From: Hydrogenovibrio sp. SC-1
Lineage (GTDB): Bacteria > Pseudomonadota > Gammaproteobacteria > Thiomicrospirales > Thiomicrospiraceae
Assembly: GCF_002848135.1 (NCBI RefSeq)
Contig: NZ_PKGB01000015.1
Span: 1-53,466 of the forward strand
Reading direction: 5' to 3'
DNA: 53,466 nucleotides
A program made the translations under genes and the position numbers. This document shows positions 1 to 32,912 of the stretch, piece by piece. The number at the start of each line of letters is the position of its first letter. Within the stretch, counting starts at the first letter, position 1. The notes beneath the pieces are model-generated. The model had not been told where the DNA came from and ran no database searches. It worked only from the letters and a program-made list of their open reading frames with translations.

Positions 1-20
1 TTTTATTGTGTGAATAACAA

Positions 21-38
21 AGCATTATTGATGCCATA
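21..38 (-). promoter_or_regulatory. sigma54 promoter, probably for the next flagellar gene to the left
   Basis: Read on the minus strand the site is TGGCAT-N5-ATGC, with the GG and GC doublets at the spacing RpoN needs. It lies beyond flgH and points out of the window, where flgI would be expected in a flgBCDEFGHI order. The target gene is inferred because it is not in the window. Confidence 0.5.
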
Positions 39-62
39 CCAATAAAAACATGAAAAAAAATC

Positions 63-89
63 TAAAGTTTTTAAGAGGGTTGCCGAGTG
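63..89 (+). promoter_or_regulatory. sigma28-type promoter on the plus strand, opposite to the flg genes
   Basis: The site reads TAAAGTTT-N11-GCCGAGTG. The -35 half is perfect and the spacing is the classical 11 bases; the -10 half matches GCCGATAA in its first five bases. No gene follows on this strand. Transcription would run into the palindrome at 150-173 and then antisense to flgH. The site could instead be an activator site for the nearby sigma54 promoter. Confidence 0.4.
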
Positions 90-101
90 GCAAAAATGGT
101 C

Positions 102-129
102 AAAAAAATGGGGATAAAATTTATCCCCC
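102..129 (-). terminator. terminator after flgH
   Basis: On the minus strand a hairpin with a GGGGATAAA/TTTATCCCC stem is followed by ATTTTTTT. It lies about 80 bases past the flgH stop and is a convincing intrinsic terminator for the flgG-flgH end of the cluster. Confidence 0.7.
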
Positions 130-149
130 AAAGACCAGAAAAGCGGGTT

Positions 150-173
150 AAAACGACCAGGCCTGGCCGTTTT
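150..173. repeat. CCAGGCCTGG palindrome family, copy 1 (intergenic)
   Basis: The core CCAGGCCTGG (157-166) is flanked by complementary AAAACGA and TCGTTTT-like arms with one mismatch, giving a near-perfect inverted repeat of about 24 bases. It lies just past the flgH stop. With the flanking T run it could also act as a two-way terminator. Confidence 0.7.
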
Positions 174-206
174 TGAATGTTTATCACATTTAAAATAAAG
201 GTTGAA

Positions 207-944
207 TTATAGCGGCCAGTATTTATGTAGCCATTGTGTCAAGGCACTTGGACGAGCCGTATTACCAGAAATACCAGTGTCCTTATAAATCAGTCTCACA
301 TCGGCAACTTTTTCCGAATCGATAGTATTATCTGGACGAATATCCTGCGGTCTCACAATACCCGCAAATCGAATCACTTCTTCACCTTCATGAATCGTAA
401 TCCATTTTTCACCACGGATGACCAAATTACCATTCGAAATCACTTCAACAACGGTGACCGCAATGGACCCTGTCAAACTTGAATTCTGTTTTACATCGGC
501 TTTACCGGTAAAGGCACCACTTGAACCATAACCAACGCCTATGCCCGTTCCAAGGCCGGGAATCGAAACATTCCCTCCCATAACATTAGCATTGGTACCT
601 GCCTGTGCTTGGCCATTTAGACCGAAATTTTGACTGTTATCTTTATTGTATTTCGCTTCATCTTTTTTCTTGGCATCAAATTTTTCAGCCAAATTAATGG
701 TGATAATATCGCCAATTTTATGAGCACGTGAATCATCAAACAACGTCAAGGCTTCTGAGCTTTGATAAAGAGACCCATTCTTCGGCAACGTCTTCTTTGG
801 AATATTCATCGGATAATTTGGCTCATAGGAGAACTTTTCTAATCGTTCAGGTGTTGAAGAACAGCCTCCAATAACAACTGACGCGAGCAACACCCCCACT
901 AAAGGATGAAATCGACGCATTTGTTTAACAGTTTTTCTGATCAT
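207..944 (-). CDS. flgH: flagellar L-ring protein FlgH (lipoprotein)
   Basis: FlgH forms the outer-membrane L ring that lets the flagellar rod pass through the envelope. The 245-residue product opens with a basic stretch, a hydrophobic segment and a lipobox ending in Cys28 (VIGGC), as expected for an acylated outer-membrane protein. The family blocks SLYQ, ...FDDSRAHKIGDIITI and NGNLVIRGEKWI are present, and the C-terminus ends with the typical WLHKYWPL. The start at 944 is preferred over an ATG at 980 because AAGGAG lies seven bases ahead of it. It follows flgG closely on the same strand and is followed by a terminator. Confidence 0.93.
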   Translation of the reverse strand: MIRKTVKQMRRFHPLVGVLLASVVIGGCSSTPERLEKFSYEPNYPMNIPKKTLPKNGSLYQSSEALTLFDDSRAHKIGDIITINLAEKFDAKKKDEAKYNKDNSQNFGLNGQAQAGTNANVMGGNVSIPGLGTGIGVGYGSSGAFTGKADVKQNSSLTGSIAVTVVEVISNGNLVIRGEKWITIHEGEEVIRFAGIVRPQDIRPDNTIDSEKVADVRLIYKDTGISGNTARPSALTQWLHKYWPL

Positions 945-991
945 CACTATCTCCTTCTTAGCGCTGTACGCTTTTATCATAAGAGCTTTTT

Positions 992-1783
992 TTAGACATT
1001 ATTATTTAGGTATTGCATCATGCCGTCAGCAGCACTGATGGCTTTCGAATTCATTTCATAAGTTCGCTGTGCTTCAATCATGCCCACCAGTTCTTCAACT
1101 GTGTTTACATTTGACGATTCAACAGCCCCTTGTAAAAGGCTTCCTGCTTCTTCAACTTCAGGGTTTTTGACATTTGGTGGTCCACTGGCAAGCGTTTCTA
1201 GAAAGAAGTTTTTACCCGCTGATTCCAAACCAGCTGGATTGATGAAGGTTGCTACGGTAATCTGACCAATTTGTATTGGATCGGGATTTCCACCTTCTTT
1301 AGCCGACACGATACCATCTGGTGAAATAATGACCTCCGTTGAATTGAGAGGCACATTGATGTTAGGTTCCACTAAAAACCCAGACGAGGTGACAAGATCC
1401 CCATTTTGATTTAACTGAAAAGAACCATCACGGGTATACAAAATATTGCCGTCCTGGTCTATTGCTTGGAAGAAACCTTTACCTTGGATCATCACATCAA
1501 ACTGGTTATTAGAAACTACTGCATTCCCATCTGTATGAATTTTTTGTACTCCAACGGCTTTCACCCCAGTTCCCATTTGAATACCAGAAGGATAGGTATT
1601 TTCAGCGTTCTGAGTTGCTTGCGCACCTGGTTGACGAATATTCTGATACATTAAGTCTTGAAACTCGGCACGTGCTGTCTTATAACCAAACGTATTGGCA
1701 TTCGCCAAGTTATTAGAGATGGTTGTCAATCTAAAATCTTGGGCTTCCAGACCTGTTTTAGCCACATATAGTGCTCTATTCAT
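992..1783 (-). CDS. flgG: flagellar distal rod protein FlgG
   Basis: FlgG builds the distal rod, the straight drive shaft between the MS ring and the hook. The product has 263 residues, close to the usual 260. The N-terminal rod/hook signature is present (ALYVAKTGLEAQDFRLTTISNNLANANTFGYK), followed by the internal GKGFFQ region. The C-terminal ESSNVNTVEELVGMIEAQRTYEMN motif forms the D0 coiled coil. It sits 42 bases after flgF and 47 bases before flgH, so the three are probably one transcript from the sigma54 site at 2769-2785. Confidence 0.96.
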   Translation of the reverse strand: MNRALYVAKTGLEAQDFRLTTISNNLANANTFGYKTARAEFQDLMYQNIRQPGAQATQNAENTYPSGIQMGTGVKAVGVQKIHTDGNAVVSNNQFDVMIQGKGFFQAIDQDGNILYTRDGSFQLNQNGDLVTSSGFLVEPNINVPLNSTEVIISPDGIVSAKEGGNPDPIQIGQITVATFINPAGLESAGKNFFLETLASGPPNVKNPEVEEAGSLLQGAVESSNVNTVEELVGMIEAQRTYEMNSKAISAADGMMQYLNNNV

Positions 1784-1825
1784 TTCAAACTCCTTTTGTC
1801 AACACGGTGGCTGACAACACCTTTA

Positions 1826-2566
1826 TTAACCTAGCTTAAGTAAACTATCCGATTTTTGAGCATGGCTTTTTGAGGTGCTCATCATCTTAATTTGCATTTC
1901 ATATTTTCGTGACAACTCAATCATATTAGTTAATGCCTGAACGCTGTTCACATTACTCGTTTCCAATGCACCACCCACTACCGTAACCGCTGCTTGCGCT
2001 AACGGTTGTTCTCCAATATTTCGAATATAGCCATCCACCCCTTTCTGTAAAGACTTGATCTCAGGCTCGACTAATCGAATTTGATCGAGAACCACTGGCA
2101 AGTTATCTGCTGAGCCCGCAGGAATAAATGAAACGGTTCCATCATTTCCAACTTTTATTGACTTAGCAGGCGGTATAGTTATCGGGGTTCCCCCTTGATT
2201 CAGAATCGCATTCCCTCCTAAATCCACCAATTCACCCAATGGGGTTAAATGCATTGATGCAGATCGAACTAAGGCTTCTGTTCCATCTGGCGATAAGATA
2301 CCAATATAACCATTTTCCTTAGTTGCAATATCCAAATCACGCCCGGTCACTTTCATTGCCCCCGGTGAAAAGTCCGTTGCGGGTCTTTCATCTAAAGCAT
2401 AGGTACGCGAGTTCCAACCCGGTCCCTGCATATGTTGCGCTCGGAATTGATTAAAGTCTTGCTTAAAACCATCTGTATTGGCATTGGCAAGGTTATTGGC
2501 ATTATTGGCCTGTGAGAGCATCACCTCTTTGGCACCACTCATCGAGATATATAACATCCGATCCAT
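1826..2566 (-). CDS. flgF: flagellar proximal rod protein FlgF
   Basis: FlgF is one of the proximal rod subunits. The 246-residue protein has the rod-family N-terminus (MLYISMSGAKEVMLSQANNANNLANANTDGFK) and a C-terminal D0 helix with the ETSNVNSVQALTNMIELSRKYE motif. It is distinguished from FlgG by length, by operon position and by the central region around residues 80-170. It leads the flgF-G-H group and has a long 5' leader of about 200 bases containing hairpins, with a sigma54 promoter further upstream. Confidence 0.92.
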   Translation of the reverse strand: MDRMLYISMSGAKEVMLSQANNANNLANANTDGFKQDFNQFRAQHMQGPGWNSRTYALDERPATDFSPGAMKVTGRDLDIATKENGYIGILSPDGTEALVRSASMHLTPLGELVDLGGNAILNQGGTPITIPPAKSIKVGNDGTVSFIPAGSADNLPVVLDQIRLVEPEIKSLQKGVDGYIRNIGEQPLAQAAVTVVGGALETSNVNSVQALTNMIELSRKYEMQIKMMSTSKSHAQKSDSLLKLG

Positions 2567-2768
2567 AACACAATTCCTTAACCTGACTGGTTTGCTTTAA
2601 CTGTCTGCTTGATTGGCTTTAAGAAAATAGGGTCCAGAAAATTTCTACCTGAACCCTTATTTGAAACACATTTCATACTCTTGACTCTTTGGTCTATGTG
2701 TTTCGTTCCCTTGTATTTAGCGTTCTCTGCCAAAAGGCTGACACTTTTGTTTTAATCAAAGTTTATTT

Positions 2769-2785
2769 AGCACAAGCTGTGCCAA
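2769..2785 (-). promoter_or_regulatory. sigma54 promoter of flgF-G-H
   Basis: On the minus strand the site is TTGGCAC-AGCTT-GTGCT. The -24 GG and -12 GC elements are correctly spaced, with one mismatch in the -12 box. It is about 200 bases before flgF. Confidence 0.6.
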
Positions 2786-2803
2786 TTTATAAAATAAAGC
2801 GAT

Positions 2804-2830
2804 TAAAGTTCTTTAGAAGTTTGCCGATAA
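2804..2830 (+). promoter_or_regulatory. sigma28 promoter on the plus strand, antisense to flgE
   Basis: The site reads TAAAGTTC-N11-GCCGATAA: a full -10 element, classical spacing and seven of eight -35 bases. It is as good a match as those of the flagellins, yet no gene follows on this strand. A transcript would start near 2838 and run through the flgE terminator hairpin into the antisense strand of flgE. Confidence 0.55.
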
Positions 2831-2847
2831 ATTTATTACGGGATGTT

Positions 2848-2876
2848 ATAAAAAAGAGCCGGCAATGATTGCCGGC
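2848..2876 (-). terminator. terminator after flgE
   Basis: On the minus strand the hairpin GCCGGCAA-TCA-TTGCCGGC is followed by TCTTTTTTAT. It is 25 bases past the flgE stop and separates flgE from flgF. The bases just before it (CTTTTCTGGTCTT) also occur just before the flgH terminator. Confidence 0.85.
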
Positions 2877-2900
2877 AAGACCAGAAAAGTAAACTTAAAA

Positions 2901-4514
2901 CTAGATTTGTAAAATAGCTTGTGTCAAGGTTTTAGCAGTTTGAACAACCTGTGCACTGGCTTGATAAGTCCGTTGCATTTGAATCATATTCACCAATTCT
3001 GATGCCGTATTCACATTCGAATATTCCAATGCACCCGAGTTAATCGAACCAAATCCATTTTCTTGAGGTGTACCAATTTGCACAGCACCCGATGAGAATG
3101 ATTCAGCATAGGTTTGTCCACCCAGTTTTTCCATCGCATTTTTATCACTGAAGTTTGCTACACCCAATTGAGCAACCTTAACGGCTAGACCGTTTGAATA
3201 GCGCGCTTCAACAATACCATCTTGCCCAGTTGTTACACCAACCAAGTCACCAATTTGATAACCGTTCTGAGTCACGCCTCTTAGGTTATAAGTCCCGGCA
3301 TATTGTGTTAACGCGGTAAAATCAGCGGTAATTTTAATTCCCTTCGGATCCGCAGGATTCCCTAAAGGATCTTGAGCACCGGTAATCGGAGTATCAATTA
3401 CCCAAGCCATTTGAGGTTGTGCGCCAACTTGAGACCAACTCGCATTTGCTAAAGGAGTATTGGCAGTGTCTTGACCGACAGGTGTTGAATTTGCACCAGC
3501 TGCTAATGCAGCAGTAACAGGTTCTCTCACATCAATCAATGACCCATTGGTATCAAAACGTAATTCAAAAATCATCCCAGCATCGGCTGATGCTGTGCCA
3601 TCTGCTGGAACCGCCTCCCTGTGTCCAGAAGTAATCCATTGATTTGTGGCCAAATCATAATCTTCTACAGTCGTTTGAGCAATCCAGCTGGTATATTTTG
3701 CATTCCCAGTACCTGCAGCTCCCTGAGCATAAGTTTGGGTTATAGGATCATAGGTTAGGTCTGAATTGGCCGCGGTCACTACATCCCGTTTAAAGAAATT
3801 AGTGGTTAAACGATGCTCGCCCCCTAATGTGTCATAAACCAATTTACTAGTAGAAAAATCTGGCGATCCACCAAATGGATCCGCTTCAGGATTTGTTAAC
3901 TTTTGAATATTGGGTAAAGTAGAACCACCTAAAGCCGTATTACCAGCAGCAGAATTACTGATCGTACCAGCGGCGGGCGTTTGAGCTGGATCGATATTAT
4001 TCGGTTCTTGGCCATCTAAGTTAACATTAAAAGTCATAGAGTCGGTTGCTTTTGGCACTTTATTCAATTCATCTAAGTTAATTGAACTCAAGGTAGTGTT
4101 AAAAACTGGAATTGCCTCTGTAGACAAAGCAGTATCTAATAAATACCCTTGTAAGGCGTTTCCATCCTGAGAGGCAACAAAACCATCCTTATCAACTTTA
4201 AAAGAACCATTACGTGTATAAACGTTACCATATTTACCGGTTCTATCTTCTAAGATAAAGAAACCTTCACCATCAATCGCCATATCCAAATCACGTCCGG
4301 TACTTGAGATGGTTCCATTTGAGAAATCTTGAGTAATTGACCCGACTCTTGCCCCATTACCAGGTGAGTTTTGAGCGCCATAAAAGACATCGGCGAATTC
4401 CGCTCTTGATGCTTTAAAGGCGGTGGTTTGGGCGTTTGCTAAGTTGTTTGAGACAACCCCCAAGCCTTCGCTTGCGGCATTAATTCCACTGACTGCTGTT
4501 AGATCGAATGGCAT
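2901..4514 (-). CDS. flgE: flagellar hook protein FlgE
   Basis: FlgE polymerises into the hook, the universal joint between rod and filament. The 537-residue protein begins with the hook signature (GINAASEGLGVVSNNLANAQTTAFK), has the GEGFFILED region near residue 85, and ends with a D0 helix containing SNVNTASELVNMIQMQRTYQASAQ. It is longer than the roughly 400 residues of enteric FlgE; the extra length is a low-complexity, Ala/Thr/Asn-rich middle (about 150-420), which is the surface-exposed variable domain in this family. It is monocistronic in layout: sigma54 promoter upstream and terminator downstream. Confidence 0.95.
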   Translation of the reverse strand: MPFDLTAVSGINAASEGLGVVSNNLANAQTTAFKASRAEFADVFYGAQNSPGNGARVGSITQDFSNGTISSTGRDLDMAIDGEGFFILEDRTGKYGNVYTRNGSFKVDKDGFVASQDGNALQGYLLDTALSTEAIPVFNTTLSSINLDELNKVPKATDSMTFNVNLDGQEPNNIDPAQTPAAGTISNSAAGNTALGGSTLPNIQKLTNPEADPFGGSPDFSTSKLVYDTLGGEHRLTTNFFKRDVVTAANSDLTYDPITQTYAQGAAGTGNAKYTSWIAQTTVEDYDLATNQWITSGHREAVPADGTASADAGMIFELRFDTNGSLIDVREPVTAALAAGANSTPVGQDTANTPLANASWSQVGAQPQMAWVIDTPITGAQDPLGNPADPKGIKITADFTALTQYAGTYNLRGVTQNGYQIGDLVGVTTGQDGIVEARYSNGLAVKVAQLGVANFSDKNAMEKLGGQTYAESFSSGAVQIGTPQENGFGSINSGALEYSNVNTASELVNMIQMQRTYQASAQVVQTAKTLTQAILQI

Positions 4515-4561
4515 GATAGCTCTCCTTGTGACTGACTCGATTTATTTTATTAATGACTGAT

Positions 4562-4580
4562 TAGCATGAGCCGTGCCAAA
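4562..4580 (-). promoter_or_regulatory. sigma54 promoter of flgE
   Basis: On the minus strand the site is TTGGCAC-GGCTC-ATGCT, with correct GG/GC spacing and one mismatch in the -12 box. It lies 48-66 bases before the flgE start. Confidence 0.65.
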
Positions 4581-4597
4581 TTTAATAAAAAAAGAAT

Positions 4598-4623
4598 TAA
4601 AGATTTCAGAAAGCTGCCGATAC
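4598..4623 (+). promoter_or_regulatory. sigma28-type promoter on the plus strand in the flgD-flgE gap
   Basis: The site reads TAAAGATT-N10-GCCGATAC, one base shorter in spacing than the enteric consensus but equal to the spacing of two flagellin promoters in this window. It is followed by TTATTACGGGG, which is also found after the site at 2804-2830, so the two regions are diverged copies of one element. No gene follows on this strand before the antisense of flgD. Confidence 0.45.
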
Positions 4624-5016
4624 CCTTATTACGGGGCTTTTTACCTGTTGACTTAAATTCTACGCCAACGACTTTCCACCTCATATTTAATAATAACGGC
4701 AACGGTTGCCGATAAGGCAAAGCTGTACGGCAATCACTTTATTTTCTCCTTGCCGTATTGCATTCTAGTACAACATGTAGCGACTCAACAGCCTTCCTAA
4801 GCCTCATCAAATCAACAGCTGAAATCACAAATTGCTATTGCGTGAATTGAATAGAGATACAAAAAAGTTGGATAGAAAACGACTTAGAAATAAATGTGAG
4901 TTTGATTAAGAAGTGGTATTACCGACTGATCGGCATGAAAATAAGAACGGTAATATGGACTAACTAAAAAATTGAGCCTATCTGAACTCGCTGTCAGACA
5001 GGCACCTTTGAAACGA

Positions 5017-5700
5017 TCAACTAATTTCTCTAATTTGATCAACATTAACGATTTCACCCGTGGCCAAGGTGGCTCGAGCGGTTCCATCACTGCCAACTCC
5101 AATTGAATTGATGCGTGAAGGAACAATGGTGTCAATGGTTTTAATGTCACCATCTTTACCTGTACCATAAACGGTCAGTTGATAATCATCACTTGGCATA
5201 TCATTACCGAGCTTATCAATACCATCCCATTGCGCCACTTTTTCACCGATAGGTTGATCGTCTAAAAAGATTTCCTTAACAGGGCCAGAGTCGTTAGAAA
5301 TAACCACTTTGACGTCGGTTAAAGGCTCTTTGATATCCAATTTAATATCACTTGTCGTACCTTGCTGATGAGATAATAAATCACCAACTGCCTGTACATT
5401 TTTACCAATTAAACTGGCAGACTGCATCACCTGCATGCTCTGTAAGCTAGTGGTCATGGCTTGCATTGCTTCGTTCATTTTATTGGTTGATTCAAGTTGG
5501 CTCATTTGTGTTAAATCAGTAACGAAGTTCGTTGGATCCATGGGTTTATTCGGATCTTGATTGGCTAGCTGTGTTGTTAATAATCTTAAGAAATCAGCTT
5601 GATCCAACTGTTGATTTGGCGCATTTTTTTTCGGATCTGTTGCTTGCTGCAAGGACGAAATATAATTCTGATTTTGCGTATCAATCGGTAACGTTGCCAT
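5017..5700 (-). CDS. flgD: flagellar hook-cap (hook assembly scaffold) protein FlgD
   Basis: FlgD caps the growing hook and is discarded when the hook is complete. The 227-residue product has the conserved N-terminal block (LDQADFLRLLTTQLANQDPNKPMDPTNFVTDLTQMSQLES, about residues 32-72), the Ig/tudor-like middle, and a C-terminal RINSIGV..DGTARATLATGEIV segment near 196-222. It starts 10 bases after flgC on the minus strand and is the third gene of the flgB-C-D unit. Confidence 0.95.
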   Translation of the reverse strand: MATLPIDTQNQNYISSLQQATDPKKNAPNQQLDQADFLRLLTTQLANQDPNKPMDPTNFVTDLTQMSQLESTNKMNEAMQAMTTSLQSMQVMQSASLIGKNVQAVGDLLSHQQGTTSDIKLDIKEPLTDVKVVISNDSGPVKEIFLDDQPIGEKVAQWDGIDKLGNDMPSDDYQLTVYGTGKDGDIKTIDTIVPSRINSIGVGSDGTARATLATGEIVNVDQIREIS

Positions 5701-5710
5701 AATCTATCTC

Positions 5711-6121
5711 CTATTTACCCAGTTGAATGGTTCTTAGTAATAATTGCTTAGAAGTATTCAATACTTCAATATTGGTTTCATAGCTTCTAGAGGCACTGAG
5801 CATATTGGCCATCTCTTCAACCACATTGACATTGGGTCTAAAAATATATCCTTCCTCATTGGCAGAAGGATGATTGGGGTTATATTCCATTTTTAACGGT
5901 GCTTTACTTTCAACCACATCATCCACTCTAACTCCGCCTACTGGCAAGCCAGATTCCTGGTCCAATACAGTTTTAAAAACAGGCTGTTTAGAGCGATAAG
6001 TGTCTTCGGCATTACTGCTCACACTGTCGACATTTGCCATATTTGAGGCAATCGTATTTAAACGAACTGTTTGGGCATGCATCGCTGAAGCAGATATATC
6101 AAGCGTTGGGAACATTGACAT
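5711..6121 (-). CDS. flgC: flagellar proximal rod protein FlgC
   Basis: FlgC is a proximal rod subunit of 136 residues, the usual size. The N-terminal region LDISASAMHAQTVRLNTIASNMANVDS is typical of rod proteins, as are the central YIFRPNVNVVEEMANMLSASRSYETNIEVLN and the C-terminal helix ending TIQLGK. It lies between flgB (11-base gap) and flgD (10-base gap) in one transcript. Confidence 0.96.
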   Translation of the reverse strand: MSMFPTLDISASAMHAQTVRLNTIASNMANVDSVSSNAEDTYRSKQPVFKTVLDQESGLPVGGVRVDDVVESKAPLKMEYNPNHPSANEEGYIFRPNVNVVEEMANMLSASRSYETNIEVLNTSKQLLLRTIQLGK

Positions 6122-6132
6122 CAGAACTCTCC

Positions 6133-6537
6133 TTATTCGCCTTTCAAGGCACCGCGAATGCCATTAATTTTACCATTCAGAAATTCAAGCGTTGCCTGAT
6201 ATTGCATGGCGTTTTCCATAAATTGGGCTTTTTCAATATGCGTTTCCACCGTATTGCCATCTAATGCTGGCTGGGTCGGTTGGCGATATTTTAAATAACT
6301 TTCCGTACTGGCTGCGTCAGCGAACCCACCGATATGACGACTATGGGTTGTCTTCATATCAGGTCTGTTAATCGACTGACTCAACGATTCTTCTGCCGCT
6401 TGCATCTCTTTACGCCAATCCAAATCACGCGCTTTAAAATTTGGCGTATCGGCATTCGCCAAATTATTCGCAATCAGGTTTTGCCGTTCTTTACGAATGG
6501 CCAATGCTTGTTCATGTATGCCAAAAATTGAATCCAT
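6133..6537 (-). CDS. flgB: flagellar proximal rod protein FlgB
   Basis: FlgB is the most membrane-proximal rod subunit. The 134-residue product carries the expected N-terminus (FGIHEQALAIRKERQNLIANNLANADTPNFKARDLDW) and a C-terminal helix with KAQFMENAMQYQATLEFLNGKINGIRGALKGE. It is the first gene of flgB-C-D. Upstream it has both a sigma54 promoter (6638-6655) and a sigma28 promoter (6692-6718), pointing at two-stage expression. Confidence 0.96.
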   Translation of the reverse strand: MDSIFGIHEQALAIRKERQNLIANNLANADTPNFKARDLDWRKEMQAAEESLSQSINRPDMKTTHSRHIGGFADAASTESYLKYRQPTQPALDGNTVETHIEKAQFMENAMQYQATLEFLNGKINGIRGALKGE

Positions 6538-6637
6538 GGCGAAATTCCTTATCTAGTCTGGTTTAGTCAAATTGATTTGCTGCTATCGCAATCTTTGTGT
6601 CAATTTAATTACATTATTCTTTTTCTAACCAAAACCA

Positions 6638-6655
6638 AGCAAAGGAAGTGCCAAG
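6638..6655 (-). promoter_or_regulatory. sigma54 promoter of flgB-C-D
   Basis: On the minus strand the site is TTGGCAC-TTCCT-TTGCT, a full match to the RpoN consensus at both -24 and -12. It is about 100 bases before flgB and is the best sigma54 site in the window. Confidence 0.85.
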
Positions 6656-6691
6656 TCATAAAAAAAGTTAAACTCATCGAAAAATGGCCGT

Positions 6692-6718
6692 TAATCGACC
6701 GGAACTCAAAAAACTTTA
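6692..6718 (-). promoter_or_regulatory. sigma28 promoter upstream of flgB
   Basis: On the minus strand the site is TAAAGTTT-N11-GTCGATTA, with a perfect -35, correct spacing and six of eight -10 bases. It lies just upstream of the flgB sigma54 site in the same direction, as in the fliD upstream region. Confidence 0.55.
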
Positions 6719-6868
6719 GCCAATATGGATTTTTTTTGCGGGCATTCGGCAAAGATTGCATGAAACAGCCAGCAAAGCAACGTGAAAGCACCTGGCTGGG
6801 CCGAACTTCAAGGAAAATTAAATCGGAAACAAACTCAGATAGACGAATTAAGAACAGGGTGCTCTGAC

Positions 6869-7318
6869 TTAATCAATTAGTGGATACCAAGAAGATACAT
6901 CGACTCTTTCTAATAGTTGGCGATAATCGGACTTAATCGTTGCCTCCAACCCCTGTGCCCTTGCAGGTTGACCCCCCCCCATGTCAGCGACTTGACGGTA
7001 AAGCGCATTTTTAAGACGATCCCGTAAATCTCGAGCATCTGTTGTAATGTATTTTTTAATAAAATTATTCAGTGTGAGTCGGTACTTTTGAATAAATAAC
7101 CGATTGACTTCAGACTGATTTGCAGAAGCCCGAACCCCACGGCAGCGTTGATTAAAGAAATCATAATGAATGGCCGTTTCAACCAAACGAATATGTAAAG
7201 CTTCTCCTGTTAGCGTTTCGACCGTTTCAACTTCAGCCTGAGCCGATAGGCTGAAAAAACCCAATCCGATAATAACCCAAATACCCAAAACTCGTTTATA
7301 GCGTGCTACTGACAGCAT
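6869..7318 (-). CDS. secreted protein of unknown function with a G9 tract
   Basis: I do not recognise this 149-residue protein. It has a clear signal peptide (basic MLSVARYKR, hydrophobic core, AQA cleavage site near residue 30). The mature part is helical and charged, with one Cys (FFNQRCRGV) and no known motif. The start at 7318 has AAGGA seven bases ahead; a GTG six bases earlier overlaps that site. Codons for Met-Gly-Gly-Gly are encoded by a run of nine G (6972-6980 as C on the plus strand), a typical slippage site. It lies between rnfH and the flgB promoters on the same strand, 32 bases after rnfH. A periplasmic role is inferred only from the signal peptide. Confidence 0.75.
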   Translation of the reverse strand: MLSVARYKRVLGIWVIIGLGFFSLSAQAEVETVETLTGEALHIRLVETAIHYDFFNQRCRGVRASANQSEVNRLFIQKYRLTLNNFIKKYITTDARDLRDRLKNALYRQVADMGGGQPARAQGLEATIKSDYRQLLERVDVSSWYPLID

Positions 7319-21773: not shown

Positions 21774-21790
21774 AGCAATTGTCATGCCAT
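21774..21790 (-). promoter_or_regulatory. sigma54 promoter of the fliE operon
   Basis: On the minus strand the site is ATGGCAT-GACAA-TTGCT, with a full -12 box and one mismatch in the -24 box. It lies 78 bases before fliE and after the flrC stop. Confidence 0.7.
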
Positions 21791-21871: not shown

Positions 21872-23251
21872 TCATACTACTTCCAAGCCCTGCTCTTTAA
21901 ATTTTGCTAACTTATAACGCAAAGTGCGTGGACTAATATTCAGCGCCTCTGCCGTTTTTTGACGATGCCCATTATTGGCTTTCAAGGTTTCCAAAATAAT
22001 TTGAACTTCACGTTCTTTTAGATCGGTTGAAACAGGTGCCAAATCGACATTCACTACAGTTGAATTAACTGTTGTCATCGCTTCTTTTTCATCGACAGAT
22101 CCCGCAGGCTCTGATGCGGTCAAATTTGATAAATTTTCATCTAGAAAAATATCTTGTAACTGAATAGTTTCACCCGACATCATCACCAACGCCCGTTGAA
22201 TAACATTATCCAGTTCTCGAATATTTCCTGGCCATCCATACTGAATTAAGGCTCGCATAGCAGGAGCTGAAATCATTGGTTCAACTCGTCGTCCGCCACA
22301 GTGACGTTGCAATAAACGCTCGGTAATCGCGGCAATATCTTTCGGACGATCACGCAATGGCGGTAATCGCATAGGAAAGACATTTAAACGATAAAACAAA
22401 TCTTCTCTGAAGTCTCCTGCTGCAATAGCGGCCTTCATGTCAACATTAGAAGCACTTAACACTCGAACGTCTAATTTAATGACTTTTGAACTACCAATCC
22501 GCTCGACTTCTCGTTCTTGAAGCACACGCAACAATTTCGCCTGTAATTCAGGTTTCATTTCGCCAATTTCATCTAAGAAAATCGTGCCATTTTGTGCCAA
22601 CTCAAACTTACCCGGCATGGCTTTGAGTGCACCTGTAAACGCACCCTTTTCGTATCCAAACAAAGTTGCTTCCAGCATATTTTCAGGAATAGCCGCGCAG
22701 TTAATTGCGATAAAGGGTTCCTTTTTCCGTGTTGAGTGATTATGAATAAATCGTGCTAAGACTTCTTTACCCGTTCCACTTTCACCCGTAATCATAACGG
22801 TCGCATCACTTTCCGCAACTTTTTGTGCCAAGGTTTTTAACTGAATGGTTGCCGGATCAGCGACAACAAAATCTTCATCTAGCGAAGCATCTCGATAAAA
22901 ATATGACTTAGCTTTTTCAACTAACACATCGGCTTCAAACGGTTTCAAAATATAATCGACTGCCCCAGATTTCATAGCATCAACCGCTTGCTCGACAGTT
23001 CCATAGGCGGTCATTAATACAATCGGCAAAAAAGGTTTAATCGCTCGAATACGAGTCATCAACTCATAACCATCCATCCCGTCCATTCGAATATCGGTAA
23101 ATATCATTGCAATTTCATCATCAAGTGCGACCAACGCATCTTCTGCTGAACTGACTGCCACAACGTCAAATCCATTTAACTCCAGCGTATCCACTAGGGC
23201 TTCTTGCAACTCGCTATCGTCTTCAACCACCAAAATCTTTGCAATACTCAT
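21872..23251 (-). CDS. flrC: sigma54-dependent flagellar response regulator FlrC/FleR
   Basis: This is the class III activator of the polar-flagellum cascade. The 459-residue protein has a receiver domain with phospho-acceptor Asp53 (FTDIRMDGMDG), acidic pair Asp11/Asp12 and Lys103. The AAA+ domain shows Walker A GESGTGKE at about 156-163 and GAFTGA for sigma54 contact, and a Fis-type helix-turn-helix lies at the C-terminus (GHRQKTAEALNISPRTLRYKLAKF). Its start overlaps the stop of flrB (ATGA), so kinase and regulator are translationally coupled. Likely targets are the sigma54 sites listed here. Confidence 0.95.
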   Translation of the reverse strand: MSIAKILVVEDDSELQEALVDTLELNGFDVVAVSSAEDALVALDDEIAMIFTDIRMDGMDGYELMTRIRAIKPFLPIVLMTAYGTVEQAVDAMKSGAVDYILKPFEADVLVEKAKSYFYRDASLDEDFVVADPATIQLKTLAQKVAESDATVMITGESGTGKEVLARFIHNHSTRKKEPFIAINCAAIPENMLEATLFGYEKGAFTGALKAMPGKFELAQNGTIFLDEIGEMKPELQAKLLRVLQEREVERIGSSKVIKLDVRVLSASNVDMKAAIAAGDFREDLFYRLNVFPMRLPPLRDRPKDIAAITERLLQRHCGGRRVEPMISAPAMRALIQYGWPGNIRELDNVIQRALVMMSGETIQLQDIFLDENLSNLTASEPAGSVDEKEAMTTVNSTVVNVDLAPVSTDLKEREVQIILETLKANNGHRQKTAEALNISPRTLRYKLAKFKEQGLEVV

Positions 23252-24420
23252 GCTTTCTCCTCAGTCAACAACAGTGGCAAACGTATTCCAAACTCGGCAC
23301 CATTTCCTTCCACCGACTTCACCCAGACTTCTCCATCATGGGCTTCTGCAACAGCCCTTACAACCGCTAGCCCTAACCCCGTTCCTTGAGCCCGACTGGT
23401 ATAAAAAGGTTCGAAGACCTTTTCATTCATCTCTGCTGTTATCCCTGGGCCATTATCTCGAACAGATAAAACCAGCTGTTGAGCCTCTCGCTCAGCTTTG
23501 ATATATATTTTCGCGCCTGATTGCACAATTTCAACTGCATTACTCACTAGATTCTCAAGAGCAGTTAATAGACCATCCTCATCCCCTAAAACGGCTAGAC
23601 CTGGTTGATTTTGTTCAAAAAAGACTTCACTTTTGGATAGTTGTATTTTGGGTTCAATCGCTTGCTTGAGTGCCTTCAATAAGCGATCAATCTCCACTTT
23701 ATGATTTTTCGCTTTTCCACCTTTTGCATATTGCAACATATCATTAACAAGTGACTCTAAGTGCCGCAAACTATTTAAGGTCTTACCGATAAATTTTTCA
23801 CGCTTATCACTATCCAACTGCGGAGAAGAAAGCTGCGACACATATAACAGAGCGGATGCGAGCGGCGTTCGAATTTGATGTGCTAGTGAAGCGGCCATTT
23901 CCCCCATTGAACTTAATCGCTGATGGCGACTCATATGCCGCTGGAGGTCTCGTGCATCGGTCACATCTTGAATCAGTAATATTTTACCTGACATATTTTC
24001 ACCGTCATACGCAAGATTTAATGGCGACTCCGATAACTGATAAACCGTTTGATTGTGGGTAATGAGTTCGCCTGCATCATTTTTAACCAGGAAAACATTT
24101 CGCATCACCACATCCCAGTGACGACCAAGTGCATCAGCGCCTAGAATTTTCTGGGCTGCAGGGTTCATATCCACCAAAAGACCATCCGCGTTTAACACGA
24201 TCACACCTGCTGGTAATAGATTCAACAACTGTTCAAGTCGCTCTCCAACATGAATTTTTTCACGATTACTTTCAGCTAACTGAGCCTGCAGATCTTCAAC
24301 TTGATTTTGTAGCGCCTCATACGCATGCGTCAACTGAAACGAGGTCTGGTTAAATAACTCAAAAGCCGCCTCCAGCTCTGTGAGTCTTTCTTTTTCAACA
24401 GAATTATCGTTTGTGCTCAC
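23248..24420 (-). CDS. flrB: flagellar sensor histidine kinase FlrB/FleS
   Basis: This kinase phosphorylates FlrC when the early flagellar structure is in place. The 390-residue protein is soluble: it has an N-terminal coiled coil (about 10-60) and a PAS domain (VIVLNADGLLVDMNPAAQKILG, about 75-150). The HisKA box SLAHQIRTPLASALL holds the phosphorylated His near residue 183, and the ATPase domain carries the N box ENLVSNAVEI and G boxes DNGPGIT and GTGLGLAVV. There is no membrane segment, as for FlrB/FleS. It is 15 bases after flrA and coupled to flrC. Confidence 0.94.
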   Translation of the reverse strand: MSTNDNSVEKERLTELEAAFELFNQTSFQLTHAYEALQNQVEDLQAQLAESNREKIHVGERLEQLLNLLPAGVIVLNADGLLVDMNPAAQKILGADALGRHWDVVMRNVFLVKNDAGELITHNQTVYQLSESPLNLAYDGENMSGKILLIQDVTDARDLQRHMSRHQRLSSMGEMAASLAHQIRTPLASALLYVSQLSSPQLDSDKREKFIGKTLNSLRHLESLVNDMLQYAKGGKAKNHKVEIDRLLKALKQAIEPKIQLSKSEVFFEQNQPGLAVLGDEDGLLTALENLVSNAVEIVQSGAKIYIKAEREAQQLVLSVRDNGPGITAEMNEKVFEPFYTSRAQGTGLGLAVVRAVAEAHDGEVWVKSVEGNGAEFGIRLPLLLTEEKA

Positions 24421-24435
24421 GATGGGGCCTTAAGA

Positions 24436-25539
24436 TTAATTTAAATTGAATTTACGGATCTTTTCGACCAGTGTTGTTCGGTTAGTTTGCAGCAGTTTTG
24501 CCGCCTGGGAAACATTCCCTTCCGTCTGCTCTAATGCCTTTTGAATTAATTGTACCTCCATCTCAACTAAATAGGACTTCAAATCCAAGCCATCACTTAA
24601 ATTTGGAGACAAGTCACTGGTTTGAGATTCTATGGATGAAGGTTTGCTCTCTTCCGATTCGGAAATCGTTTTAGCTGAAGTGCCTGTGTCAATATCGGAA
24701 GAATCAGCTTGCACACTAACATCTGAATTTATCGGCGGTTCTGCCTGTTTTAAAACTTCATTTCCGTCAAGTTCGACTTGATATTTTACCGGCAAATCAT
24801 CATAACCCACATTCAAACCAGGAAACAAAATAGATAATCTTTCCGCTAGGTTTCCTAATTCACGGACATTTCCTGGCCAATGATAATTTTGTAAGGCAAT
24901 CAATGCCGTTTGAGATAAATTTGGAATTTTACGCCCAGAATCCTGAATTTTTTTAAACATAAAATCAAACAATTCTGGAATATCTTCAGGTCTTTCTCTT
25001 AAAGACGGCATTTCAATAGGAAACACATTCAAACGATAAAATAAATCTTCTCGAAAGGTTCCATCCGAAATATTATCTTCTAAATTTCGGTGCGTTGCTG
25101 CGATCACTCGAACATCGCACTCAAAGCTTTTGTTGCCACCAACACGTTCATATATTCGTTCTTGCAAGACGCGAAGTAATTTAACCTGCATCGGTAATGG
25201 CATGTCACCGATCTCATCCAAAAAGATCGTGCCCTTTTCGGCCATTTCAAAACGCCCTTTTCGAGCGGTAATTGCCCCAGTAAAGGCCCCTTTTTCATGA
25301 CCAAATAACTCTGACTCCAGCAGTTCTCCAGGGATTGCACCACAATTAATAGGAATAAAGGCCTTTTCAGAACGGATTGAAATAGAGTGTAAGGCTTGAG
25401 CGACCACTTCTTTTCCCGTTCCTGACTCGCCGAGAATAAGAACCGATGCATCGGTATTTGCGACTTGATGGATGAGCTTTTTGACTTGTTGCATTGCTGG
25501 CCCAGCGCCAACGAGGTTAGGTAAAAGTGTTTGTTGCAT
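24436..25539 (-). CDS. flrA: sigma54-dependent flagellar master regulator FlrA/FleQ, lacking the N-terminal domain
   Basis: This is a bacterial enhancer-binding protein of 367 residues. The AAA+ domain fills residues 8-245, with Walker A GESGTGKE at 37-44, GAFTGA near 99 and the arginine-finger region FREDLFYRLNVFPIEMPSLRERPED. A Ser-rich linker (265-315) and a Fis helix-turn-helix (NVSQAAKLLQTNRTTLVEKIRKF) follow. FleQ/FlrA proteins normally have another 120-140 residues at the N-terminus (a divergent receiver domain); here the AAA+ domain begins almost at once. The frame stays open for 32 codons upstream but has no start codon there, and the promoter at 25616-25644 lies within it. Ribosome binding is weak. 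Confidence 0.85.
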   Translation of the reverse strand: MQQTLLPNLVGAGPAMQQVKKLIHQVANTDASVLILGESGTGKEVVAQALHSISIRSEKAFIPINCGAIPGELLESELFGHEKGAFTGAITARKGRFEMAEKGTIFLDEIGDMPLPMQVKLLRVLQERIYERVGGNKSFECDVRVIAATHRNLEDNISDGTFREDLFYRLNVFPIEMPSLRERPEDIPELFDFMFKKIQDSGRKIPNLSQTALIALQNYHWPGNVRELGNLAERLSILFPGLNVGYDDLPVKYQVELDGNEVLKQAEPPINSDVSVQADSSDIDTGTSAKTISESEESKPSSIESQTSDLSPNLSDGLDLKSYLVEMEVQLIQKALEQTEGNVSQAAKLLQTNRTTLVEKIRKFNLN

Positions 25540-28890: not shown

Positions 28891-28945
28891 AATTCTGTCT
28901 CCTGGTCAGGAACAATATAATTTAATTATAGGATATTTATTTCAA

Positions 28946-28961
28946 GCAGCAAAAGTGCCAA
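28946..28961 (-). promoter_or_regulatory. sigma54 promoter of fliD
   Basis: On the minus strand the site is TTGGCAC-TTTTG-CTGC: a full -24, three of four -12 bases and correct GG/GC spacing. It lies 56 bases before fliD. Confidence 0.65.
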
Positions 28962-28978
28962 TCCTTATGTTATTTATT

Positions 28979-29005
28979 ATATCGGCAAACAACAATAAAT
29001 CTTTA
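28979..29005 (-). promoter_or_regulatory. sigma28 promoter of fliD
   Basis: On the minus strand the site is TAAAGATT-N11-GCCGATAT, a strong match with classical spacing, just upstream of the sigma54 site and in the same direction. Confidence 0.7.
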
Positions 29006-29145: not shown

Positions 29146-30072
29146 TTATTGCAATAGCGATAATACTTGCTGAGATTGTTGGTTCGCTTGACTCAGCATG
29201 CTCATCCCTGCTTGTTGCAATACTTGGGTTCTCGCCAAGCTTGCACTTTCTATTGCAAAGTTCGCATCCATAATTCTGGAGCGTGATTCATTAATGTTTT
29301 CATTAATATTTTGTAAATTCGATACCGTTGACTCTAGTCGATTTTGTAACGCACCCCAAGTCGCACGCATCGTTTTTAATACAGATAACCCTGTATCAAA
29401 TGTAGTCAACGCAACCGAGGCTTTAATCGCTGCTGATGCATAAGTTGAGATACCTGAGTTAGCCAACCCTATTGCTGCACCAATCGCACTGAGTGATGAG
29501 AAGTTAAGCATTGGAATCCCCATACGGTTATTTGATGCGCCTTCCCAACCAGCATGAATTTTCATCGCTGACGCATTGGCTGTAGCGACAGATAGCGCTC
29601 CAGCACTAGTTGCTGCAAAGGTTGCTGCAACCGCTGCAGATCCAAATGAACTGGCGTTCATAATATTCATTCCGTTAAATTTGGTAGTATCTGCAACGCG
29701 CTGGATTTCACCTTTTAACTGGATAATTTCTGAATCCATTTGTTTACGGTTATCCATACTGTAGGTACCGTTCATTGACTGTATGGCTAGTTCACGCATT
29801 CTTTGCATCATGTTCATAACTTCTTCAGTCGCACCATCTAGAGTTTGCAACATGCCAATACCGTCATTGGCGTTACGAATCGCCATTTCTGTTCCACGGA
29901 TTTGAGTAGTCATACCTTGTGCAACTGCAAGTCCTGCTGCGTCATCTGCTGCACGGTTGATTCTAAGACCTGATGTGAGGCGTTCCATTGCAGTTGATTG
30001 TTCACGCGAGGTTGCGTCTAACGTTCTTACCGCATTGAGTGATGCCATATTTGTGTTGATTACCATTGCCAT
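29146..30072 (-). CDS. flagellin A (identical to flagellin C)
   Basis: This is a filament subunit of 308 residues. The D0/D1 N-terminus (MAMVINTNMASLNAVRTLDATSREQSTAMERLTSGLRINRAADDAAGLAV) and C-terminus (ESRSRIMDANFAIESASLARTQVLQQAGMSMLSQANQQSQQVLSLL) are canonical. The short Ala/Ser-rich middle (about 135-215) replaces the large outer domains of enteric flagellin. It is identical in protein, and apparently in DNA, to the gene at 31878-32804. It has its own sigma28 promoter at 30155-30180 and terminator at 29021-29048. Confidence 0.96.
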   Translation of the reverse strand: MAMVINTNMASLNAVRTLDATSREQSTAMERLTSGLRINRAADDAAGLAVAQGMTTQIRGTEMAIRNANDGIGMLQTLDGATEEVMNMMQRMRELAIQSMNGTYSMDNRKQMDSEIIQLKGEIQRVADTTKFNGMNIMNASSFGSAAVAATFAATSAGALSVATANASAMKIHAGWEGASNNRMGIPMLNFSSLSAIGAAIGLANSGISTYASAAIKASVALTTFDTGLSVLKTMRATWGALQNRLESTVSNLQNINENINESRSRIMDANFAIESASLARTQVLQQAGMSMLSQANQQSQQVLSLLQ

Positions 30073-30167
30073 GATATTTCTCCCTTGTATATCTAACTTG
30101 TGTGTGATTTATCTATTTTTAGTTTTGAGGCAGTGTGCCCTGCCTTCAATCAAGTTATCGGCTCTAT
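29146..30167 (-). repeat. 1,022-bp direct repeat, copy A (flagellin gene plus promoter -10)
   Basis: By eye this segment matches 31878-32899 base for base. Identity starts exactly at the flagellin stop codon and ends just upstream of the sigma28 -10 box, after which the -35 regions differ by a few bases. The offset is 2,732 bp. Confidence 0.85.
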
Positions 30168-30180
30168 CAAAATTTCTTTA
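30155..30180 (-). promoter_or_regulatory. sigma28 promoter of flagellin A
   Basis: On the minus strand the site is TAAAGAAA-N10-GCCGATAA: a full -10, the -35 core and spacing one base short of the enteric norm. It lies 83-108 bases before the gene. Confidence 0.75.
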
Positions 30181-31841: not shown

Positions 31842-31868
31842 GTATCGACAACTTTTGGAAAACCTTTA
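31842..31868 (-). promoter_or_regulatory. sigma28 promoter of flagellin B
   Basis: On the minus strand the site is TAAAGGTT-N11-GTCGATAC. It fits between the flagellin C stop and flagellin B. Confidence 0.65.
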
Positions 31869-31877
31869 GAAGACTTT

Positions 31878-32804
31878 TTATTGCAATAGCGATAATACTT
31901 GCTGAGATTGTTGGTTCGCTTGACTCAGCATGCTCATCCCTGCTTGTTGCAATACTTGGGTTCTCGCCAAGCTTGCACTTTCTATTGCAAAGTTCGCATC
32001 CATAATTCTGGAGCGTGATTCATTAATGTTTTCATTAATATTTTGTAAATTCGATACCGTTGACTCTAGTCGATTTTGTAACGCACCCCAAGTCGCACGC
32101 ATCGTTTTTAATACAGATAACCCTGTATCAAATGTAGTCAACGCAACCGAGGCTTTAATCGCTGCTGATGCATAAGTTGAGATACCTGAGTTAGCCAACC
32201 CTATTGCTGCACCAATCGCACTGAGTGATGAGAAGTTAAGCATTGGAATCCCCATACGGTTATTTGATGCGCCTTCCCAACCAGCATGAATTTTCATCGC
32301 TGACGCATTGGCTGTAGCGACAGATAGCGCTCCAGCACTAGTTGCTGCAAAGGTTGCTGCAACCGCTGCAGATCCAAATGAACTGGCGTTCATAATATTC
32401 ATTCCGTTAAATTTGGTAGTATCTGCAACGCGCTGGATTTCACCTTTTAACTGGATAATTTCTGAATCCATTTGTTTACGGTTATCCATACTGTAGGTAC
32501 CGTTCATTGACTGTATGGCTAGTTCACGCATTCTTTGCATCATGTTCATAACTTCTTCAGTCGCACCATCTAGAGTTTGCAACATGCCAATACCGTCATT
32601 GGCGTTACGAATCGCCATTTCTGTTCCACGGATTTGAGTAGTCATACCTTGTGCAACTGCAAGTCCTGCTGCGTCATCTGCTGCACGGTTGATTCTAAGA
32701 CCTGATGTGAGGCGTTCCATTGCAGTTGATTGTTCACGCGAGGTTGCGTCTAACGTTCTTACCGCATTGAGTGATGCCATATTTGTGTTGATTACCATTG
32801 CCAT
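31878..32804 (-). CDS. flagellin C (identical to flagellin A)
   Basis: The 308-residue flagellin has the same sequence as the gene at 29146-30072, including silent positions as far as I can compare. Its promoter (32887-32912) is the same apart from a few bases in the spacer and -35. Only about nine bases separate its stop from the flagellin B promoter and no terminator is visible, so read-through into flagellin B is likely. Confidence 0.96.
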   Translation of the reverse strand: MAMVINTNMASLNAVRTLDATSREQSTAMERLTSGLRINRAADDAAGLAVAQGMTTQIRGTEMAIRNANDGIGMLQTLDGATEEVMNMMQRMRELAIQSMNGTYSMDNRKQMDSEIIQLKGEIQRVADTTKFNGMNIMNASSFGSAAVAATFAATSAGALSVATANASAMKIHAGWEGASNNRMGIPMLNFSSLSAIGAAIGLANSGISTYASAAIKASVALTTFDTGLSVLKTMRATWGALQNRLESTVSNLQNINENINESRSRIMDANFAIESASLARTQVLQQAGMSMLSQANQQSQQVLSLLQ

Positions 32805-32899
32805 GATATTTCTCCCTTGTATATCTAACTTGTGTGTGATTTATCTATTTTTAGTTTTGAGGCAGTGTGCCCTGCCTTCAATCAAGTTATCGGCTCTAT
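31878..32899 (-). repeat. 1,022-bp direct repeat, copy C (flagellin gene plus promoter -10)
   Basis: This is the partner of 29146-30167. The sharp left edge at the stop codon and the right edge in the promoter spacer suggest recent duplication or ongoing gene conversion across the intervening flaG and flagellin B genes. Confidence 0.85.
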
Positions 32900-32912
32900 T
32901 CAAATCTCTTTA
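32887..32912 (-). promoter_or_regulatory. sigma28 promoter of flagellin C
   Basis: On the minus strand the site is TAAAGAGA-N10-GCCGATAA, the same -10 and spacing as flagellin A. Confidence 0.75.

Follow-up and report, generated by a model that had tools for sequence, protein, structure and literature searches.

Antisense sigma28-type promoter elements at helical-turn spacing from flagellar sigma54 promoters in Hydrogenovibrio and related genera

Divergent promoter pairs in the flg gaps

The 53,466-nucleotide stretch of Hydrogenovibrio sp. SC-1 DNA analysed here (contig NZ_PKGB01000015.1; the window) covers the left-hand portion of a flagellar cluster on the minus strand, in which sigma28-type promoter elements face away from sigma54-type promoters of flg genes. 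The genome belongs to genus g1 of family f1, and other genomes are designated by handle and genus code. The flg genes follow in the order flgB, flgC, flgD, flgE, flgF, flgG and flgH; flgI is taken to lie beyond the left end of the window. On this strand, flgF (1826..2566) and the hook protein gene flgE (2901..4514) matched NF009280 and TIGR03506, respectively, over the cut-off, and flgH (207..980) was hit by FlgH models at scores short of the curated cut-offs. Among named organisms, the FlgE closest to that of the window, at 96% identity, comes from a Piscirickettsiaceae metagenome-assembled genome; Thiomicrorhabdus, Hydrogenovibrio and Sulfurivirga species follow, and these are sulfur oxidisers. 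Also in the cluster are an FlrC/FleR-type sigma54 activator (a response regulator; 21872..23251, minus strand), its kinase and a FleQ-like activator (together 21872-25539), and then fliD and the flagellin genes (26.5-32.8 kb). The names FlrC and FleQ rest on position and homology, none being over the model cut-off among the matches listed.

Sigma54 sites, defined as GG-N10-GC in the context TGGCAC/T-N5-TTGC and scored with a weight scheme of our own, were found on the minus strand at 21..37 (ATGGCATCAATAATGCT; taken as the promoter of flgI, whose position is inferred from relatives), at 2769..2785 (TTGGCACAGCTTGTGCT; flgF) and at 4563..4579 (TTGGCACGGCTCATGCT; flgE), with scores of 18.0-20.0. 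Each is accompanied by a plus-strand, hence antisense, sigma28-type site. We scored these over 13 positions, TAAAG for the -35 and GCCGATAA for the -10, with a spacer of 13-14 bases and a match threshold of at least 11/13. Site 2 (2804..2830; TAAAG-N14-GCCGATAA) agrees at 13/13 positions, site 3 (4598..4623; TAAAG-N13-GCCGATAC) at 12/13 and site 1 (63..89; TAAAG-N14-GCCGAGTG), the weakest, at 10/13; we judged all three to be of the sigma28 promoter type. An earlier note on this DNA had described three such divergent pairs, separated by 18-25 bp, with a word common to the two right-hand copies and no gene on the plus strand. The description holds throughout: the gaps measure 25, 18 and 18 bp (sites 1, 2 and 3), the common word is TTATTACGGG at 2833-2842 and 4626-4635, and the open reading frame list contains only short plus-strand frames, none of which we judged to be a gene. 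The plus-strand word at 2833..2842 stands where relatives carry a TTATATAGGAAGG-like stretch and would belong to the region in which a putative antisense transcript starts.

The same type of element serves as an ordinary promoter elsewhere in the window. Sense sites on the minus strand precede the three flagellin genes (30155..30180, 13/13; 31842..31868, 11/13; 32887..32912, 13/13) and fliD (28979..29005), with the same two spacings, N13 and N14, and the motif is therefore the sigma28 promoter type of this genome. FliA itself is encoded (TIGR02479 over cut-off, G000:C4:142207-142860), as it is in 24/24 genomes tested, this one included. TAAAG-N13/14-GYCGATW occurs 20 times in the 2.45-Mb genome, against five occurrences of the reversed pattern, and eight of the 20 fall within the 53-kb window. 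The six other matches in the window lie on the flagellar strand, upstream of the three flagellin genes, fliD and flgB and just upstream of fliF. When an antisense sigma28 site was combined with a sigma54 site in one pattern, 45 of the 62 family genomes contained it and none contained the reversed control.

A few observations concern these yardstick promoters. At fliD (28945-29005), a sigma54-like site (28945-28961) lies 17 bases past the sense sigma28 site. The flagellin genes at 29146-30072 and 31878-32804 are identical over all 927 bases, as are the 45 bases past their sigma28 -10; the third gene, between them, has 257/309 codons alike. On another contig (L107, G000:C4, 604-630), TAAAG-N14-GCCGATAA precedes flgL on the flagellar strand. 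In relatives this match falls within apparent flgJ coding sequence (a G014 homologue has Pfam Rod-binding). It may be a sigma28 promoter for flgKL embedded there, although constraint on the protein could also explain it.

Conservation and spacing among relatives

In the family sample of 62 genomes, flgF was located in 58, and the upstream region was read in all 58. An antisense motif of at least 11/13 lies upstream of the sigma54 site in 44/58, compared with 2/1160 dinucleotide-shuffled regions. TAAAG, the half whose lack of conservation the earlier note had named among its refuting conditions, is intact in all 44, so that this condition is not borne out at flgF; the spacer is always 13 or 14 bases, and no sense match reaches 11. 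The scores leave a gap in their distribution: the other 14 regions reach at most 8/13, one g2 genome rising to 9/13 once flgE coding sequence is added (the short g2 regions of G024 and G028, rescanned, gave 7/13 and 9/13). All 58 regions hold a sigma54-like site scoring at least 18. The antisense -35 is preceded by an A-rich stretch and the -10 followed by a conserved TTATATAGGAAGG-type start region. In some lineages the TAAAG half is only 5-9 bp from the sigma54 site, a separation at which, by their footprint sizes, sigma28 and sigma54 polymerases should exclude each other.

The arrangement recurs at flgI. Antisense matches of at least 11/13 occur in 21/42 regions with a good sigma54 site, sense matches in none, and shuffled regions gave 1/840; in regions lacking a recognisable flgI start, the 480 bases that follow flgH were used instead, so that some of these sigma54 sites may not belong to flgI. 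The equivalents of site 1 in those 21 regions score 11-13/13. Site 3 is rarer: among the combined-pattern matches in the family, only this genome and its nearest relative, G003, have one at flgE, and most of the flgD-flgE gaps read in relatives are without a sigma54 site. It probably arose by duplication. In the window, about 500 bases (4515-5016) and its own sigma54 promoter part flgE from flgD, which lie close together at most other loci; in G003, flgB and flgD were not found on the contig carrying flgE.

The flgB region (6638-6718), overlooked by the earlier note, carries the element as an overlapping sense and antisense pair. Next to the sigma54-type promoter of flgB (6638..6654, minus strand) stand an antisense arm (6669..6694, plus strand; 11/13, with TAAAC for TAAAG) and, overlapping it, a sense site (6692..6718, minus strand; 11/13), in a layout of roughly TAAAG-N14-GCCGATATACGGCC-N13-CTTTA. 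Two opposed promoters overlapping at the -10 define the bidirectional, shared -10 class of promoters. Sense matches of at least 11/13 were found in 23/43 family regions, antisense ones in 17/43, at least one of them in 32/43 and both in 8/43, with 4/860 for shuffled regions. Among the eight with both arms, the antisense match of G001 lies elsewhere, and weaker second arms are seen in other regions.

We considered the possibility that the motif is a generic element of every flagellar sigma54 promoter and rejected it: within the 130 bases upstream of the sigma54-like site ahead of fliE-fliF (21774-21790), the best score is 7/13 in antisense and 9/13 in sense. In the relative G408, however, fliE is preceded by an antisense match (locus L189).

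Measured between the GG of the sigma54 site and the middle of the GCCGAT box, the spacing of the sigma28-type element and the sigma54 site clusters at each promoter in steps of roughly one helical turn. At flgF it is 31 (4 genomes), 41-42 (34) or 51-53 bp (6), at flgI 28-31, 38-40 or 49-50 bp, and for the sense arm at flgB 44-46, 54-55 or 65-66 bp. Mapped onto a FlgF/G/H tree, these values imply about ten separate shifts, each close to 10.5 or 21 bp in size, with a mean square deviation of 0.51; none of 200,000 random sets did as well, a figure that serves as a guide and not as a preplanned test, since the list of shifts was drawn up after the clusters had been seen. The tree came from a quick search with 30/55 inner branches starred, and G422, misplaced for lack of data, was left out. 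The spacing between the box and the flgE terminator hairpin, on the side away from the sigma54 site, served as a control: across 37 genomes all values from 28 to 39 occur, and two lie at 23. Steps of whole helical turns relative to the sigma54 site thus suggest an action in cis on the sigma54 promoter. If a factor bound at the box touches or obstructs the sigma54 polymerase or the activator of that polymerase, a fixed face is expected; for a promoter serving only to make an RNA, it is not.

Other words were noticed near these promoters. In the flgF leader (2704-2725, minus strand), a CGCTAACACACAAGGGAA-like word recurs 45-82 bases downstream of the start of the sigma54 site in 29/58 family genomes, and upstream in 2; g6 genomes that are without the sigma28 motif also keep it (L087-L090). 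It is a possible RNA-binding or activator site. Upstream of flgI, at 157-166, is the loop-free palindrome CCAGGCCTGG, found also upstream of flgI in several relatives and of flgF in the g6 locus L087, which could be a regulator site. The perfect inverted-repeat word CGGCAACGGTTGCCG lies upstream of the flgE promoter (4697-4711), and TTGCC/GGCAA palindromes recur near the flg promoters of several relatives.

Possible roles of the elements

We tentatively propose that the sites are sigma28 (FliA) promoter elements which, pointing away from the flgF, flgI and flgE class III promoters, would antagonise these promoters in cis late in assembly. FlgM is exported once the hook is finished. From then on, sigma28 polymerase, which we infer would bind the sites in vivo on the helical face shared with the sigma54 promoter, could obstruct the sigma54 polymerase or its contact with the activator, and could also fire a short-lived antisense transcript toward flgE or flgH. 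Class III transcription would then fall as class IV starts. That sigma28 polymerase is the factor concerned is favoured by the match of both halves and both spacings to flagellin promoters, by the uniform antisense orientation at flgF and flgI, and by the A-rich and start-region stretches flanking the motif. In its stronger form, to which we give less credence, the proposal makes the sigma28 holoenzyme a DNA-bound regulator on a fixed helical face that, after FlgM export, would switch off the rod and hook operons by itself, tying class III shut-down to completion of the hook with no need of a further repressor.

Several findings weigh against this proposal. The flgF motif is missing in 14/58 genomes (all 4 of g2, all 7 of g6 with flgF, and G401, G415 and G423 of g3) and is therefore not required for flgF; in g6, flgF was not found directly behind flgE. 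In five flgI regions GCCGA is kept and TAAAG has become TCAAT (G002, G009) or TCAAG (G013, G023, G027). An additional word in the spacer (about TTTNAGAAAA) is common to the flgF and flgE sites and is not seen in the flagellin promoters, hinting at a further binding protein. At flgB, a sense motif would be predicted to raise, not lower, late expression. The phasing has its own weaknesses beyond the late drawing up of the shift list. The antisense arm at flgB is the least clean, with distances of 31, 37-38, 41, 49-50 and 58-61 bp and one at 111 bp, and coherence pooled over flgF, flgI and flgB is only 0.29 at 10.5 bp (40 distinct combinations). The pooled value is low because each promoter has its own offset; a phase common to all promoters was accordingly rejected, and the claim of phasing holds per promoter. 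Finally, helical phasing is equally needed by a bound activator.

This last point leads to an alternative that the earlier note had raised, namely that the element is an FlrC/FlrA site mimicking sigma28. In the form considered here, the class III activator FlrC/FleR, or else a different factor working with sigma54, would bind the element as its site or as part of that site, and the likeness to a sigma28 promoter would be due to chance or common descent. We regard this as rather unlikely. Phasing to the sigma54 site favours it, as do the extra spacer word at flgF and the GCCGA half that outlives a decayed TAAAG at some flgI promoters. Yet the agreement with sigma28 promoters extends over 13 positions and two spacings, and sites 5-9 bp from the sigma54 site would leave little room for an activator loop. 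FlrC is expected to prefer a palindrome, as Fis-type domains do; the motif occurs in both orientations and as a near-palindrome at flgB, but no palindrome was seen by eye at flgF.

The distribution of FlrC bears on the same question. FlrC is present in 24/24 genomes tested, 12 of which are without the flgF motif, and in 8 of these 12 its recognition helix is the same or nearly the same. The helix-turn-helix of G401 and G423, without the motif, reads NISPRTLRYKLARLKEQG, exactly as in G029, which has it; G415 and five g6 genomes have NLSPRTLRYKLA, and the remaining four (G011, G024, G022 and G426) differ more. The motif is thus not found at every FlrC-dependent promoter, if the dependence of flgF on FlrC is carried over from Vibrio cholerae (as described in the available part of PMC7064773), and it is not an obligatory FlrC site at flgF, since promoters there do without it while FlrC is kept. 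In Vibrio, moreover, FlrC sites typically lie downstream of the start, according to the accessible sections of PMC6504787. The idea is weakened by this and no more than weakened, because an activator site, too, would be expected as a phased element next to a sigma54 promoter.

Another possibility is that sigma28-dependent regulatory RNAs start at the sites and act on hook-stage mRNAs, either as small RNAs with their end at the flgE terminator or as antisense RNAs to the 3' ends of flgE and flgH. This had been the other suggestion of the earlier note, and we hold it to be unlikely. Its sigma28 part stood up well, with both halves and both spacings kept in 44/44 flgF sites; its RNA product did not. 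A polymerase starting from sites 1-3 would enter the 3' ends of flgH or flgE, or the flgD-flgE gap, in antisense. In the window, the flgH terminator hairpin (110..129, minus strand; read directly from the sequence) is followed by a minus-strand T-run, and the flgE terminator hairpin (2858..2876, minus strand; from sequence reading and hairpin scoring) has a T-run on the minus strand only. A conserved TTATATAGGAAGG- or TTATTACGGG-type stretch lies within about 20 bases past the antisense -10, and in 37/44 genomes a hairpin begins 23-39 bases past it, as a small RNA would lead one to expect. T-runs flank the hairpin on both sides in G002, G009, G012 and G018, but no others among the 42 genomes whose hairpin was scored have a T-run on the antisense side (4/42, or 4/37 for the main hairpin, as the scored hairpin is a short upstream one in 5), and the window's own species is not one of the four. 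An intrinsic terminator that would give such an RNA a defined 3' end is thus found in 4/42 genomes and not in the window, and a defined small RNA is not a common feature.

Other searches for a product gave little. Rfam returned no match over window positions 1-7000 at E<=1, and the sequence downstream of the flgI site is different. An antisense small open reading frame was rejected after the aligned frames past the antisense start were read by eye, no start codon or frame being common across the genomes. The phasing to the sigma54 site is unexpected for such an RNA and finds no explanation in it. What speaks for an RNA from outside is Campylobacter, whose sigma28-dependent noncoding RNAs are predicted, in the available part of PMC4626219, to target sigma54-dependent mRNAs. 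Because of the scarcity of antisense T-runs we rank cis action above an RNA product, though an unstable antisense transcript might contribute. Two words were seen beside the hairpins: CTTTTCTGGTCTT precedes the flgH and flgE terminators on the minus strand (130-143, 2877-2889), and GACCAG lies past the flgE hairpin, in the antisense view, in 20/42 genomes.

That the sites have no function, being sigma28-like words that originated once beside flg promoters, persisted by descent and give at most pervasive antisense transcription (the many intragenic FliA sites of E. coli offering a parallel, in the accessible part of PMC4183435), is very unlikely given thirteen defined positions kept in 44 genomes despite diverged spacers and flanks, the gap in the score distribution and shifts by whole helical turns.

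How transcription of the class III (rod and hook) genes stops at the filament stage is, to our knowledge, not settled in polar flagellates. If antagonism in cis by sigma28 elements proved true, the checkpoint sigma factor would itself shut off class III, and the phased sigma28 sites present across several genera would offer a concrete candidate for how this happens. A match to the sigma28 consensus beside a flagellar operon, moreover, need not imply a missed gene or small RNA.

Relation to known systems

In our literature search, the coverage of which left out most subscription journals, we found no description of antisense sigma28 promoters beside the sigma54 promoters of hook genes. The nearest comparison is with canonical FliA promoters, such as those of the flagellins in this genome, which have the same TAAAG, 13 or 14 bases and GCCGATAA. 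Unlike these, the sites described here have no downstream gene, run antisense to the ends of flgE and flgH, are phased to a sigma54 site and, at flgF, carry the extra spacer word.

Flagella of E. coli are not known to use sigma54. FliA sites away from gene starts, some of them antisense, are known in that species (PMC4183435, as far as its available part goes), and in this the two systems are alike; they differ in that position and phase are conserved across genera here. The earlier note had cited sigma28-dependent regulatory RNAs as known in E. coli; they are also described in Campylobacter, in the accessible portions of PMC4626219 and PMC11187230. Those RNAs, CjNC1, CjNC4 and FlmR (CJnc170), likewise depend on sigma28, and CjNC1 and CjNC4 are predicted to act against sigma54-dependent flagellar mRNAs (same sources). 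They are discrete RNAs, whereas the present sites are without a conserved terminator and any RNA from them would be putative. Vibrio FlrC enhancers resemble the element in acting on class III sigma54 promoters; in contrast to their typical place downstream of the start (from the available text of PMC6504787), the element stands upstream of the sigma54 site, and some flgF promoters do without it.

Among 365 non-family genomes of the class, 13 contain the pattern of an antisense sigma28 site with a sigma54 site, and 7 of these 13 were looked at. One (L219) precedes flgI, with the motif seemingly inside the preceding gene, another (L221) precedes a TPR protein, and four look like chance. FlgE loci, drawn from a set of 80, were scanned over up to 420 bases past flgE: 28 non-family loci had no antisense match of at least 11/13 (best 10; four of these stretches are short and several run into flgF), and the same scan, read at three family loci, gave 13/13 at L282, 12/13 at L294 and none at L292. 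Within the family, a further antisense sigma28 and sigma54 match (L188, G023:C28, 2755-2814) lies upstream of a gene read as flagellin modification (MAF-type), a 200-residue piece of which had no Pfam match.

The closest parallel outside the family is G357 (L223), where an antisense sigma28 motif also lies upstream of a flagellar sigma54 promoter. There, unlike at the flg sites, the sigma28 site serves a CheV-like gene (by our reading of a 320-residue open reading frame) and the sigma54 site serves flgA (FlgA by Pfam); it is a single case, and its spacing is off the ladder of helical turns. An antisense sigma28 promoter beside a sigma54 promoter thus exists elsewhere with an ordinary reason, whereas in this family no such gene is present and the spacing changes by helical turns.

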